64,000 nucleotides of DNA from Candidatus Sumerlaeia bacterium (GTDB lineage Bacteria > Sumerlaeota > Sumerlaeia > SLMS01 > JAHLLQ01): contig JAHCAW010000019.1 in NCBI GenBank assembly GCA_019634695.1, positions 1 through 64,000 on the forward strand, in the 5' to 3' direction. Below, one piece after another: positions 29,250 to 37,083 of this stretch; position 1 is the stretch's first letter; every line of letters begins with the position of its first letter. The notes beneath the pieces are model-generated. The model did not search any database, was not told the origin of the DNA, and worked only from the letters and a program-made list of their open reading frames with translations. The position numbers and the translations under genes are program-made.

Positions 29250-29441
29250 GGTGGGCCTCCGGCGTGGCGGGATTTCGGTCAGTAGGCGTGTCAGTCCACT
29301 GCAAGCAGGGTGGGGGAAGGGGACAGAAGGCGTCAAGGCCCACGGCGCGGGGGTGGCGGTTTCCCCGTGACACGACGCGGGGAGGGGTCCGAGGGTGGGA
29401 ATTCTTGGGCCAATGCCGTTGAGGGGTCACGGACACCAGCG

Positions 29442-31766
29442 ATGCAGGATCGGATGCCACCGGGATTCGAGGCGGTCGGCGCGCTCGGCAAGGGCGCGAT
29501 GGGCCGCGTCTATAAAGCGTGGCAGCCCAAGCTTCAACGCCACGTGGCCATCAAGACGTGCAACATCGCCGAGTCGCGCGAGCGCGGGCAGGACCCCGGC
29601 CGCCTCGAGGACGAGGCGCTGACCATCGCCCGCCTCAGCCACCCCAACATCGTGGCCCTCTTCGACGTCTTCCGCGACGAGGAGGCGATTCACCTCGTCA
29701 TGGAGTTGCTCGACGGCCAGCCGCTGTCGCGGCTGCTCAACCCGATGGTGGACGTGTCGGAGTTGGGCGAGCTGGCGGCCGTGCTGGACCGCGAGGCATC
29801 CGAGATCCTCCCCACGCGACCGCGCATCGTGGCGGACCGCTGGCTGTGCGAGATCGGCATCGCCGTGGCCCGCGCGCTCGACTACGCGCACTCGCGCGGC
29901 GTGCTCCACCGCGACGTCAAGCCCGGCAACATCGTCGTCACCAACGACCACCACATCAAGCTGCTGGACTTCTCCATCGCGCGCGATGCGGACAAGTCCG
30001 GCGGCGGGCGCACGGCCACTGGCACCATCTTCGGCACCGTCGCCTATATGTCCCCCGAGCAGGTGCTGGGGCAGCAACTCGATGGCCGCACCGACATCTA
30101 TTCCCTCGGCTGCACGCTGTTCCACTGCGCCACCGGGCGCGTTCCCTACGACGACCCGAACGACATCACGGTGTGCATGAACCATGTGAACGCCGAGGTG
30201 CCGGACCCGCGGTTGCTCAACCCGATGCTGCGGGACAGCATTGGGCGCGTGATCCTGAGGTGCATGGCAAAACGCCCCGAGGACCGGTTCGAGTCGCCCG
30301 GCATCGTCGCGGCGATGCTGGGATCGGTGCTGCGCGGCGACACGGTCAGCATCTCGCTCGACCATGTGTTCAAGCAGCACCTGCCGCCGCCGGTGCAGAG
30401 CACCCCGTCCGACAAGCCGGCGGCCGAGACGGTGAACATGTCGGCGCCGACGGCGCGCGTGAGTTCGAAGGAAGTGGGCAAGGTTTCGCTGCCGCCGCTG
30501 GACGACACCGGGGAGCGGCAGGCGCCGCCGGTCGCGCGGCGCGGAGCGACGACACTCGATGGACTGGCAGAGAAGTCGCGGCGCTCGCCAACGCCGTCGA
30601 GCCCGCAGCCGGTGTCGCAGGTCTTTGCCGAGCCGGCAATGTCCGATGGAGATGAGTACGACCTCGAGTCGCTGCCGTCGGTGCGCGAGACGCTGGATTC
30701 GACGGTCGCCATACCGCGCCAGAGGCCCGCGCCGAATCGTCGGAAGTTCGTGCTCGGCGGTGTCGCCGGCGCGATCGTGTTGCTCATCCTGATCGTCGTG
30801 TTCGCGCGGTCGGGCGGCGACAAGGAGCAACCGGAAGACACCCCGGGAGTCGTCGCGCGGCCCACGCCCACGCCAACGGCGACACCGATCCCAACCGCCA
30901 CGCCCGAAGGCGCGCTGCCGACAGCCACCCCCGACGGCGAAGTGGCAGTGGCGATCACGCCGACACCGACGCCGCGGCCCACGCCAACACCGACGCCGAT
31001 GCCGCTGCCGGCGTTGCCCGAGGTGCAGCCCAATGTGCTGCGATTCCGCGTGCCACTGGCAGAAGGTGTTGAACTGACGATGCGCGAGTTGCCCGCGGGC
31101 GGGTTCGTGATGGGTTCACCAGGCGAGGAGTTCGGCCGCACCGAGGAGGAGGGGCCGCGCACGACGGTGCGCTTCGCCTATCCGTTCTACATGAGCGAGA
31201 CCGAGATCACGCGCGGACAGTGGCACACCGTGATGGGCACGGGGGCGACGCCGGGCGAAGAGAACCTGCCGGTGGACAACGTCTCGTGGGAGCAGGCGAT
31301 GGCGTTCTGTCGGCGCCTGACCGAGCGCACGGGGATCACCTTCACGCTGCCGACGGAGGCGCAGTGGGAGTACGCGTGTCGCGCGGGCAGCACGACGCCG
31401 TTCACGTTCGGGCCGATCCTGACATCCGAAATCGCGAACATCGACGGCACGCGACCCTATCCGCGCGCCGCGCCAAGCGAGAAGCGCAACGCGGTGGCGC
31501 CGGTGCGATCCTATCCACCCAACGCGTGGGGACTGCACGAGATGCACGGCAACGTGCGCGAGTGGGTGCGCGACACGTGGACGCCGCGCCTGCCCGGGCG
31601 GGAGGCGACGAATCCGGTGACCTTTTCGGCGACGGAGACGCGGCGCGTCTTGCGGGGAGGCAGCCACCAGGACGATGCGGTCGGGGCGCGCAGCGCGGTG
31701 CGCCGGCCGGCCGAGGCGGGACGGGCGATTTCGACGGCCGGCTTCCGCGTCGTGGCGGAACTCTGA
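29442..31766 (+). CDS. Ser/Thr protein kinase fused to a formylglycine-generating-enzyme-type domain
   Basis: A 774-residue single-pass protein. The Hanks-type kinase domain occupies residues 1 to about 300: GALGKGAMGRVYKA, Lys38 in VAIK, HRDVKPGN (156-163) and, instead of the usual DFG, DFS at 176-178. The APE region reads MSPEQV. A Ser/Thr/Pro-rich linker leads to a transmembrane helix (FVLGGVAGAIVLLILIVVF, about 436-455). A TPTPTATP-rich stalk outside follows, then a C-terminal FGE-sulfatase/SUMF1 domain (about 530-774): FVMGSPGEEFG, LPTEAQWEYACRAG, GLHEMHGNVREWV and RRVLRGGSHQDD. Kinase inside, FGE-like sensor or enzyme outside: this architecture is known from planctomycetes. It opens a dense plus-strand run. 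Confidence 0.93.
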   Translation: MQDRMPPGFEAVGALGKGAMGRVYKAWQPKLQRHVAIKTCNIAESRERGQDPGRLEDEALTIARLSHPNIVALFDVFRDEEAIHLVMELLDGQPLSRLLNPMVDVSELGELAAVLDREASEILPTRPRIVADRWLCEIGIAVARALDYAHSRGVLHRDVKPGNIVVTNDHHIKLLDFSIARDADKSGGGRTATGTIFGTVAYMSPEQVLGQQLDGRTDIYSLGCTLFHCATGRVPYDDPNDITVCMNHVNAEVPDPRLLNPMLRDSIGRVILRCMAKRPEDRFESPGIVAAMLGSVLRGDTVSISLDHVFKQHLPPPVQSTPSDKPAAETVNMSAPTARVSSKEVGKVSLPPLDDTGERQAPPVARRGATTLDGLAEKSRRSPTPSSPQPVSQVFAEPAMSDGDEYDLESLPSVRETLDSTVAIPRQRPAPNRRKFVLGGVAGAIVLLILIVVFARSGGDKEQPEDTPGVVARPTPTPTATPIPTATPEGALPTATPDGEVAVAITPTPTPRPTPTPTPMPLPALPEVQPNVLRFRVPLAEGVELTMRELPAGGFVMGSPGEEFGRTEEEGPRTTVRFAYPFYMSETEITRGQWHTVMGTGATPGEENLPVDNVSWEQAMAFCRRLTERTGITFTLPTEAQWEYACRAGSTTPFTFGPILTSEIANIDGTRPYPRAAPSEKRNAVAPVRSYPPNAWGLHEMHGNVREWVRDTWTPRLPGREATNPVTFSATETRRVLRGGSHQDDAVGARSAVRRPAEAGRAISTAGFRVVAEL

Positions 31767-34481: not shown

Positions 34482-36509
34482 ATGTCTGAGAAGACCGTCA
34501 TCGGCGGTGCGGGCAATCCGGGCGTGGAGTGCTTCCACTTCCGGGAGGATTACCTGTTCTTCGGCCTGCTGGTCCGCCATGGTCTGTGCGCGCCGTCGGA
34601 CCACGCGGGGCTGGTGCGGGCGCAACGGGCGCACGAGCCTCCGATGCCGCTGGCCGAGTTGCTGGCGGAGAAATCGAACCTGTCGGACGAGAATCGGCGC
34701 GGCATTGAGGAGTTGCTGGGCGTGCTGGCGAATCCGAAACTGGCCGACCTGTTGCCGGCCGAGTTTTCCGGCCTGCGAACGCTGGTGCCGCGCCAGGAGG
34801 CAACGCAGCACGAGACGCCCGAATCGGCGCCGACGGTTGGGTTGCCGGACCCGGCCCACCGCAAGACCGAAACCGATCATGGCGACGAAGCGCGCACGCT
34901 GGCCGAGGACGAGTTCCTGGCCGGCCTGATGTCGGGCTCGTCCGGTTCCCTGGGCGGCGAGACGGCGTCGTATCTCTCCGAGGAGGAGATGACGCGCGTG
35001 GCGCGCGCCGCGCACAAGGGACAGTTGATCGGCGAACTGCTGCACGGGCACGTGGTGATCGACCGTTTGGGCGGCGGCGGACAGGGCGACGTGTATCTCG
35101 CCAAGCAGGTGTCGCTGAATCGATACGTGGCGCTGAAGAAGCTGGAAATCCCGCCGTATGCCTCGCCCGGCCAGTTCCTCGAAATGTTCCGCCGCGAGGC
35201 GCGGACTCTGGGCGCAATCAACCACGCCCGCATCGTGAAGGTGTACGAGATATTCGAGGAGGACGGGCTGGCCTGCTTCACGATGGAGTTCCTGAAGGGT
35301 CGGGCGCTGAACGACCTCGTGAAGGAAAGCGGCGACGGGATGCCGCTGGACGTGGTGGCGAACCTCGCATGCCAGGCGTGCAGCGCGTTGGGCCGGACGG
35401 CCGAGGACGGACTGGTGCACCGCGACATCAAGCCGGCCAACATGATGCTGGACGAGAACGGCGACTTGAAGATCGTGGACTTCGGTCTGGCGACGGCGGC
35501 GGCGGCGTTCAAGAAGCCGGGCGCCTTCTCGGGCACGCCGCACTATGCCTCGCCCGAGCAGGCGCGGCTGGACCCGCTGACGCCGGCGAGCGACCAATAC
35601 TCCCTGGGAGTGACGCTGTTCTATGCGCTGACCGGTCGCCTTCCCTTCGAGGCGACGACGGCGAGCGACATGCTCGACAAGCACATGAAGGAGACGCCGC
35701 CGGCGCCAAGTTCGCTGAATCCGCAGCTCCCTCCCTCGGTGGACCGCGTGCTGCTGCGGATGATGGAGAAGGACCCCGGGCGACGGTTTGCGAGCTTCGA
35801 CGATTGCTTCTCCGCATGGGAGGAGATCCTGCAAGCCGAGTCGCGCGGAGGCGCGGCGGCCACGAGCCAGTTGCTCGGCGACGCGCTGCTGCGCTTCGGC
35901 AAGAAGGAGCGGGATTCGATCCTGCGGCGCTCGATCTGGCTGACGCTGGCGTGGCTGCTGCTCGTGACGGGCACGGTGCTCGGGGAATATCGGCTGCGCA
36001 GTCGCGGGCTGGGCTGGTTCCTGGACTTCTGCGGCCTGTGGGGCACGGTGCTGCTGACGTTTTCGCTGGCCTGCATCTTCTATGTGGCGGTGGCGCGACG
36101 GCGGTGGGTGCCGATTGTGGGCAGCCTGCGGGCATGGCTGTACACGCACATTGCCACGGCCGTGCCGGCGGTGGCGATGCTGCTGGTGCATTCGGGCTAC
36201 TTTGTCCAGGACATGTTCTCGCGCTCGGTGCATTCGCGTCCCTGGCTGTCGGTGCTGATGGCTTCGACGTTGCTGGTGACGGCGATCAGCGGTTCGGTGG
36301 GCCTCGTGATCTTTCGGCAGTTGCGGCGGCGATTGCAGCTCGAGGGGCTCGAGTTGCGCGGCGTGCGGACAAGTCCGCGCGAGGCGATGCTGATGGTGCT
36401 GGGCGCGCGGTTCCTTGCGGGCTGGCGGCTGGTGCACTATCCGTTGGCGGTGTTCTTCATTCTGTTGTCGATCGCGCACATCCTGCACTGGCTGCGGTTC
36501 CGGGTCTGA
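34482..36509 (+). CDS. Ser/Thr kinase fused to a di-heme-b-like membrane domain
   Basis: A 675-residue protein. Residues 1-180 are a variable helical/acidic region with a Thr/Glu-rich linker. The kinase domain (about 190-450) looks active: LGGGGQGDVYLAK, Lys219 in VALKK, HRDIKPAN with Asp315, and DFG at 333-335. After residue 480 there are five predicted helices. TM3 has His556 and His570 (WLYTHIATA and AMLLVHSG) and TM5 has His652 and His666 (VHYPLAV and SIAHILHW). Both pairs are 14 residues apart, as expected for two stacked heme b groups ligated by two helices. The next gene is a c-type cytochrome 13 bp on. I infer a kinase controlled by quinol or cytochrome redox state. Heme binding is predicted, not shown. 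Start ATG 34,482; the frame opens at 34,446. Confidence 0.88.
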   Translation: MSEKTVIGGAGNPGVECFHFREDYLFFGLLVRHGLCAPSDHAGLVRAQRAHEPPMPLAELLAEKSNLSDENRRGIEELLGVLANPKLADLLPAEFSGLRTLVPRQEATQHETPESAPTVGLPDPAHRKTETDHGDEARTLAEDEFLAGLMSGSSGSLGGETASYLSEEEMTRVARAAHKGQLIGELLHGHVVIDRLGGGGQGDVYLAKQVSLNRYVALKKLEIPPYASPGQFLEMFRREARTLGAINHARIVKVYEIFEEDGLACFTMEFLKGRALNDLVKESGDGMPLDVVANLACQACSALGRTAEDGLVHRDIKPANMMLDENGDLKIVDFGLATAAAAFKKPGAFSGTPHYASPEQARLDPLTPASDQYSLGVTLFYALTGRLPFEATTASDMLDKHMKETPPAPSSLNPQLPPSVDRVLLRMMEKDPGRRFASFDDCFSAWEEILQAESRGGAAATSQLLGDALLRFGKKERDSILRRSIWLTLAWLLLVTGTVLGEYRLRSRGLGWFLDFCGLWGTVLLTFSLACIFYVAVARRRWVPIVGSLRAWLYTHIATAVPAVAMLLVHSGYFVQDMFSRSVHSRPWLSVLMASTLLVTAISGSVGLVIFRQLRRRLQLEGLELRGVRTSPREAMLMVLGARFLAGWRLVHYPLAVFFILLSIAHILHWLRFRV

Positions 36510-36522
36510 GGAGCGTGGAACG

Positions 36523-37083
36523 ATGGCTGCCGTATCGGAGAAGCAGGTTCCGCGGCTGCTGAGCATCGGGGCGATCGTGATCGGTGTGGCCGTGTCGGCG
36601 GCGCTGTTCGCCGCGGGGCTGCGGGAGCCGCGTGCGTTCGGCATGACGATGGCCGTGAACCATCATCTGGGCGGATACGCGCAAGGGGCCGAGCCGGTGA
36701 GTTGCCAGGCGTGCCATGTGCCGGTGGCGGGGCGACTGATGGCGACGCGGATGGACTGCTTCACCGGCGGCTGCCACATGGAGTTGCAGCCCGGCGTCGA
36801 GCGGCAACGGGCGATCGAGCACTACCTCGTGGGCAGGCAGGACTACGGCGACGCGGCGCAACGGGCGGAGTTCCACCTGATGCTGCACGCCGCGGCGGGC
36901 GACAGGAAGTGCGTCGACTGCCATGCCGAGCATCGCGCCTACGACCGCGTGTATCCCGAGGGATTCGAGCCGTACTACCTGTGGCTGCGAAGGCAGCCGC
37001 CCGCGGCGACGTCCGGCGTGTGGCGACGCGTGGGCGAGATCGACCTTGCCCGCCGAAGCGACGGGACGGACGACCCGGGTTGA
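36523..37083 (+). CDS. Membrane-anchored c-type cytochrome with three heme sites
   Basis: A 186-residue protein with an N-terminal anchor (RLLSIGAIVIGVAVSAALFA, about 11-30) and an extracytoplasmic part. Heme c sites: CQACH (61-65), CVDCH (130-134) and an unusual CX4CH, CFTGGCH (79-85). Extra His at 47, 48, 100, 118, 122 and 137 could give second axial ligands, as in NapC/NrfH-like or multiheme proteins, though no family is recognised. It starts 13 bp after the kinase stop behind a GAGGAG box, so the two are almost surely coexpressed. A role in passing electrons to or from the kinase heme domain is inferred from this. No ccm genes are in the window. Confidence 0.88.
   Translation: MAAVSEKQVPRLLSIGAIVIGVAVSAALFAAGLREPRAFGMTMAVNHHLGGYAQGAEPVSCQACHVPVAGRLMATRMDCFTGGCHMELQPGVERQRAIEHYLVGRQDYGDAAQRAEFHLMLHAAAGDRKCVDCHAEHRAYDRVYPEGFEPYYLWLRRQPPAATSGVWRRVGEIDLARRSDGTDDPG

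Follow-up and report, generated by a model that had tools for sequence, protein, structure and literature searches.

A Sumerlaeota Ser/Thr kinase with a di-heme-b-type membrane domain and an adjoining multi-heme cytochrome c: a putative redox-signalling unit

Could a bacterial Ser/Thr kinase take its signal from electrons that pass through its own membrane domain? The question is raised by two adjacent genes of a Candidatus Sumerlaeia bacterium from a little-known phylum (GTDB lineage Bacteria; Sumerlaeota; Sumerlaeia; SLMS01; JAHLLQ01), which lie in the stretch of DNA analysed here (assembly GCA_019634695.1, contig JAHCAW010000019.1, forward strand, positions 1 to 64,000; this whole stretch of 64,000 nucleotides is called the window). 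Translation of positions 34482-36506 gave a protein of 675 aa, P0001, with no internal stop. The gene of the predicted cytochrome c, P0002, starts 13 bp past the P0001 stop codon, behind a GAGGAG site, just as a preliminary description of the locus had it. The features are as follows.

34482..36509, plus strand: P0001, Ser/Thr kinase with a C-terminal di-heme-b-type membrane domain, 675 aa (translation, Pkinase match)
34482..35054, plus strand: predicted N-terminal cytosolic region of P0001, residues 1-191 (Pfam search, structure model)
35058..35792, plus strand: kinase catalytic domain, residues 193-437 (Pkinase profile, Foldseek match to PknB)
35925..36506, plus strand: five-helix membrane domain, about residues 482-675 (hydropathy, alignment, positive-inside rule)
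36147..36191, plus strand: candidate heme-ligand pair of TM3, H556-X13-H570 (invariant in 18/18 homologues)
36435..36479, plus strand: candidate heme-ligand pair of TM5, H652-X13-H666, following the invariant W648-R649 (invariant in 18/18 homologues)
36508..36513, plus strand: GAGGAG, ribosome-binding-site-like, overlapping the kinase stop codon TGA (sequence)
36523..37083, plus strand: P0002, predicted membrane-anchored tri-heme cytochrome c, 186 aa (heme motifs, hydrophobic N-terminus)

By its profile match and catalytic residues, P0001 is a Hanks-type Ser/Thr protein kinase. Residues 193-437 matched Pkinase (PF00069) with an E-value of 8.7e-45 and 153.6 bits against a cut-off of 31.7. Lys219, the HRD Asp315, and the DFG motif at 333-335, which the preliminary description had reported as retained, were all in place, and the catalytic set was intact: K219, E239, H313-R314-D315, N320, D333-F334-G335, and the glycines of the G-rich loop were invariant in all eight fusions of this kind that we found. 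The modelled P0001 matched PknB kinase structures in Foldseek searches (best E-value 5.4e-18). P0001 resembles PknB in kinase fold, in catalytic residues, and in being a single-chain transmembrane kinase; the two differ in what follows, since PknB carries extracellular PASTA sensor repeats after one TM helix, whereas the C-terminus of P0001 is a five-helix domain with candidate heme ligands. Against the NCBIfam model PknB_PASTA_kin, P0001 stayed below the cut-off (242.7 bits vs. 450), with the kinase part alone aligned. Residues 1-169 had no Pfam match, and residues 91-158, modelled with pLDDT below 50, are probably disordered. The window holds a second Ser/Thr kinase (29310-31766, plus strand), in which a proline/threonine-rich stretch is followed by a C-terminal formylglycine-generating-enzyme-like (FGE-sulfatase) domain.

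Hydropathy analysis revealed five membrane segments in the C-terminal part of P0001, starting near residues 484, 519, 557, 592, and 650. According to the positive-inside rule, the topology was predicted as N-in and C-out, loops 462-483, 538-555, and 611-649, the most positive ones, lying inside. H556 and H570 are located in TM3 and H652 and H666 in TM5, each pair forming an HX13H motif; the preliminary description, which had taken these residues for a two-heme cytochrome b pattern, gave their positions and 14-residue spacing correctly. The b domain was aligned across 18 homologues, comprising the eight kinase fusions and ten stand-alone proteins from other bacteria. All 18 domains had the four His, with a spacing of exactly 14 residues in both pairs, so the di-heme reading passed the check on conservation that had been set for it. 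No other His was invariant, and the pattern is therefore not due to chance. Just 11 columns of the alignment were invariant (G43, G46, the four His, S128, G129, G132, W173, and R174 in domain numbering), and the distance between the two His pairs ranged from 76 to 101.

Fourteen residues make about four helical turns, so each His pair would face one side of its helix; since TM3 and TM5 are both predicted to run outward, pairing is possible between H556 and H652 and between H570 and H666. We took an HX13H pair in each of two helices that run outward as the mark of a di-heme b domain and found this arrangement in all 18 homologues, helix direction being a topology prediction. Cytochrome b and the ferric reductase/NOX membrane domain follow the same principle of pairing His across two helices, and in the latter two hemes sit on His pairs in TM3 and TM5. 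Unlike ferric reductase/NOX, P0001 has no FAD/NADPH domain and five helices rather than six.

It might be supposed that the domains of P0001 work independently, as an ordinary transmembrane kinase in which a degenerate cytochrome b serves as a mere membrane anchor, given that bacterial kinases often have varied membrane parts and that more than 20 kinase-domain matches were found in this genome. However, an anchor needs neither four His kept invariant in fusions and stand-alone relatives alike nor a cytochrome c gene that always adjoins, and we regard this explanation as very improbable.

No family in Pfam or NCBIfam covered the membrane part of P0001. Of the earlier two-heme cytochrome b assignment, the ligand pattern and the predicted topology stood. 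The domain of the window, however, was covered by none of the curated profiles at a score above the cut-off, and it had no match to cytochrome b561/Ni_hydr_CYTB (PF01292), DUF4405 (PF14358), or Ferric_reduct (PF01794). Among the 18 family members, Ni_hydr_CYTB and DUF4405 were each listed at E<=1 for eight (best 1.7e-07 and 7.1e-06, respectively), and Ferric_reduct weakly matched five (best 0.0021, in a relative). These weak profile links place the b domain in the broad cytochrome b superfamily and do not assign it to a named family. AlphaFold modelling of the membrane part with seven sequences gave helices of uncertain packing (pLDDT 71, pTM 0.59). With this weak model, a Foldseek search of the PDB returned nothing significant, the top match being the NOX5 transmembrane domain (E=0.24, TM-score 0.2), and a PDB profile search with the 18 rows gave chance-level matches (adiponectin receptor, E=0.17).

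Outside Sumerlaeota, the b domain was detected in about 35 of the 386 genomes around G315, mostly as stand-alone proteins of about 190-350 aa. Of 14 loci inspected together with their flanks, 13 had a cytochrome c with at least eight heme sites directly next to the b-domain gene (or overlapping it in the gene calls), and one had it at a distance of about 1 kb; the neighbours of the ten stand-alone homologues in the 18-domain set were 8-10-heme cytochromes c. The pairing with a cytochrome c, proposed earlier for the window alone, is thus a general habit of the stand-alone relatives, and it was kept at all eight fusion loci. In L069:4898-7159 and L149:1960-4800, the domain is fused to an FAD/NAD(P) oxidoreductase and a 4Fe-4S module, and in L134:331-2310 and L139:244-2217 it shares one protein with cNMP-binding and 4Fe-4S domains; the latter two may represent a cyclic-nucleotide-controlled electron conduit. 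A C-terminal DUF547 follows the b domain in L131:1471-3192 (Pfam match) and L129 (similar sequence). Downstream of the L069 fusion lies a 23-heme cytochrome c. A 925-codon open frame with no Pfam match extends over the b-domain match at L142:541-3315. No kinase fusion was seen among the non-Sumerlaeota matches examined; the contig scan was run with tight patterns, which divergent cases would escape.

The FAD/Fe-S fusions and multi-heme neighbours suggest that the b domain moves electrons between the cytosolic/quinone side and the periplasm. Taken together, the invariant His, the multi-heme neighbours, and the FAD and cNMP fusions with 4Fe-4S make the domain very probably a transmembrane electron conduit.

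Of 40 Sumerlaeota genomes searched with the membrane-domain profile, eight had the fusion. These eight all belong to one order, which has 12 genomes; the named records were mostly Candidatus Sumerlaeota/Sumerlaeia MAGs. The genome search for the two-gene pair that had been proposed earlier found the pair at 8/8 fusion loci, with gaps between the genes of 13, 6, 10, 34, 9, 2, 3, and -4 bp. Direct searches with P0002 recovered a homologue in seven of the eight fusion genomes, always in the same place, and the eighth, the most divergent partner (G002), was assigned by position; none was found by direct search in the four fusion-free genomes of the order. No third gene was conserved at the loci, and beyond close sister genomes only the kinase-cytochrome pair was common. 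Likewise, no target or neighbouring response gene was conserved around the fusion loci. The genome of the window is a draft in 127 contigs, and the arrangement might stem from a frameshift, from chimeric assembly, or from a gene order that arose by chance in a single metagenome bin. This is refuted by eight separately assembled genomes that share the fusion and its neighbour, in single frames without stops, and we give such an artefact practically no weight.

In a tree with 33 other Sumerlaeota kinases, the eight fused kinase domains formed one clade (support 99/93) with two subclades, and a single fusion event therefore fits. L007, a kinase of the same genome that branches beside the fused clade, was considered as a further b-domain kinase and rejected, its membrane part having no HX13H pairs. 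The genome of the window belongs to family f1, yet its copy groups with those of family f2, and the sister species G001 has no fusion. This placement may result from transfer within the order, or else from differential loss. An empty site near mutY was sought in G001; the polX neighbour was unmatched there, and no insertion site was seen.

P0002 has an N-terminal hydrophobic stretch and heme sites at C61xxCH, C79x4CH, and C130xxCH. The three sites announced in the preliminary description are present, but the middle one is CX4CH and not CX2CH, invariantly in 8/8 homologues. All three sites and exactly three non-motif His (H48, H122, and H137) were invariant in the eight neighbours; these His are candidate distal ligands, and by motif count they suffice for bis-His ligation of three hemes. 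P0002 therefore has what we looked for in a multi-heme cytochrome c of class III-like kind, several CX2-4CH sites plus enough spare His. It stayed below the cut-offs of the Cytochrom_CIII (18.1 bits vs. 22.9) and NrfH (NrfH/NapC quinol dehydrogenase; 15.7 bits vs. 134.2) profiles. In the second subclade (G002, G003, and G004), the partners are longer and have five heme sites in all. Those of G003 and G002 end in a C-terminal thioredoxin-like stretch (weak match) with no evident CXXC motif. The second-subclade partner cytochromes, identified by heme sites and a weak thioredoxin-like match, are the following.

L027:6428-7711, minus strand: second-subclade partner cytochrome
L028:6541-7734, minus strand: second-subclade partner cytochrome
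L029:6532-7719, minus strand: second-subclade partner cytochrome

The ligands of both proteins bear on whether something other than respiratory electron flow is sensed, such as free heme, a heme ligand (O2, NO, or some other), or, acting outside-in through P0002, an electron donor or acceptor outside the cell. The C-terminal end of P0001 and P0002 are both predicted to face the periplasm, and outside-in flow could use the same parts. On the other hand, the two His pairs and the three spare invariant His of P0002 suggest six-coordinate hemes, which are poor gas binders, and sensing of this kind seems rather improbable to us.

A kinase fused to an electron-carrying domain, always beside the gene of an electron partner, probably converts respiratory state into a signal by phosphorylation. 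We assign a probability of about 0.6 to redox-controlled kinase activity, with the two genes forming a redox-signalling unit that conveys respiratory status to Ser/Thr phosphorylation. P0001 would be a transmembrane Hanks-type kinase whose membrane domain serves as a di-heme b electron conduit. Its N-terminus and kinase would lie inside, H556/H652 would hold the inner heme, and H570/H666 would hold the outer heme, on the side of the periplasm, to which the anchored tri-heme P0002 would also be exposed. Electrons would pass between the b hemes and P0002, coming from the quinol pool or, in the opposite direction, from a donor in the periplasm; since the kinase fusion has no electron-input module, a quinol donor is the likeliest. 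The TM bundle would shift with the redox state of the hemes or the flux through them. In the model, a helix of residues 474-507 links the juxtamembrane linker to TM1; this helix may act as a lever, through which the shift would be passed from the heme bundle to the kinase and alter kinase activity. Heme loading, His pairing, electron direction, coupling to kinase activity, and targets are the parts of this mechanism that we infer.

Control might also run in reverse: the b domain and P0002 would function together as a quinol:cytochrome c conduit. Cued by ATP or other cytosolic signals, the kinase would phosphorylate this conduit or neighbouring respiratory proteins and so regulate electron flow. 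The stand-alone relatives do resemble plain respiratory conduits, and other relatives bear regulatory domains (cNMP-binding with 4Fe-4S) that could steer electron flow and not read it. However, the cNMP fusions also bring 4Fe-4S electron input, which the kinase fusion does not have, and a three-heme partner is small for a respiratory conduit, though the other subclade has five. We consider reverse control unlikely, and return to a kinase that reads respiration. A cytochrome c assembly protein, NrfD-type membrane subunits, and COX1 are all encoded in the genome of the window; on contig 37, COX1 lies about 5 kb from one of the NrfD-type genes. In a survey, Sumerlaeota were described as facultative anaerobes, several subgroups of which have quinol-oxidising complexes and aa3 or bd oxidases (PMC8092238); a readout of respiratory state would therefore be useful to them.

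The open-access literature searched contained no description of a single-chain kinase-cytochrome b fusion accompanied by its own cytochrome c. The kinase fold, the di-heme b logic, pairs of b with multi-heme c, and control of a kinase by a cytochrome b complex are all of already known kinds. CbcL of Geobacter is a quinol:cytochrome c oxidoreductase made of cytochrome b and multi-heme cytochrome c. Mco of ANME archaea is a methanophenazine:cytochrome c oxidoreductase, likewise of cytochrome b plus multi-heme cytochrome c (PMC9012536). As in Mco and CbcL, a membrane cytochrome b stands next to (or is fused with) a multi-heme cytochrome c, with proposed transfer from quinol to the periplasm, a layout found in the stand-alone relatives of the b domain as well. 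Unlike their VhtC/HydC-like cytochromes b, the domain of P0001 is joined to a kinase, is only weakly linked to Ni_hydr_CYTB/DUF4405, and carries one HX13H pair in each of TM3 and TM5. The Ser/Thr kinase STT7/STN7 is reported to be switched by cytochrome b6f, a di-heme cytochrome b complex of an electron transport chain (PMC13287000); kinase and cytochrome b are there separate plastid proteins of unrelated origin, whereas P0001 holds kinase and b domain in one polypeptide. At somewhat less than even odds, we tentatively propose that P0001 is a kinase built on its own quinol:cytochrome c conduit, in which flow through the two b hemes gates Ser/Thr phosphorylation, as a bacterial single-chain counterpart of STT7-cytochrome b6f. 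The quinone-sensing histidine kinase ArcB, which reads the redox state of the quinone pool through cysteines (PMC3792059), shares the proposed readout; it differs in being a histidine kinase with no heme conduit of its own.

Sensor domains of bacterial Ser/Thr kinases are known in few cases, and if such a kinase does read out electron transfer directly, this kind of input would be new. Because of the fusion, an effect of heme redox state on kinase activity becomes testable with one purified protein. The b domain itself represents an uncurated, widespread di-heme b family joined to FAD/Fe-S, cNMP-binding, and kinase modules, and this family may serve as a set for studying unions of electron conduits with signalling.
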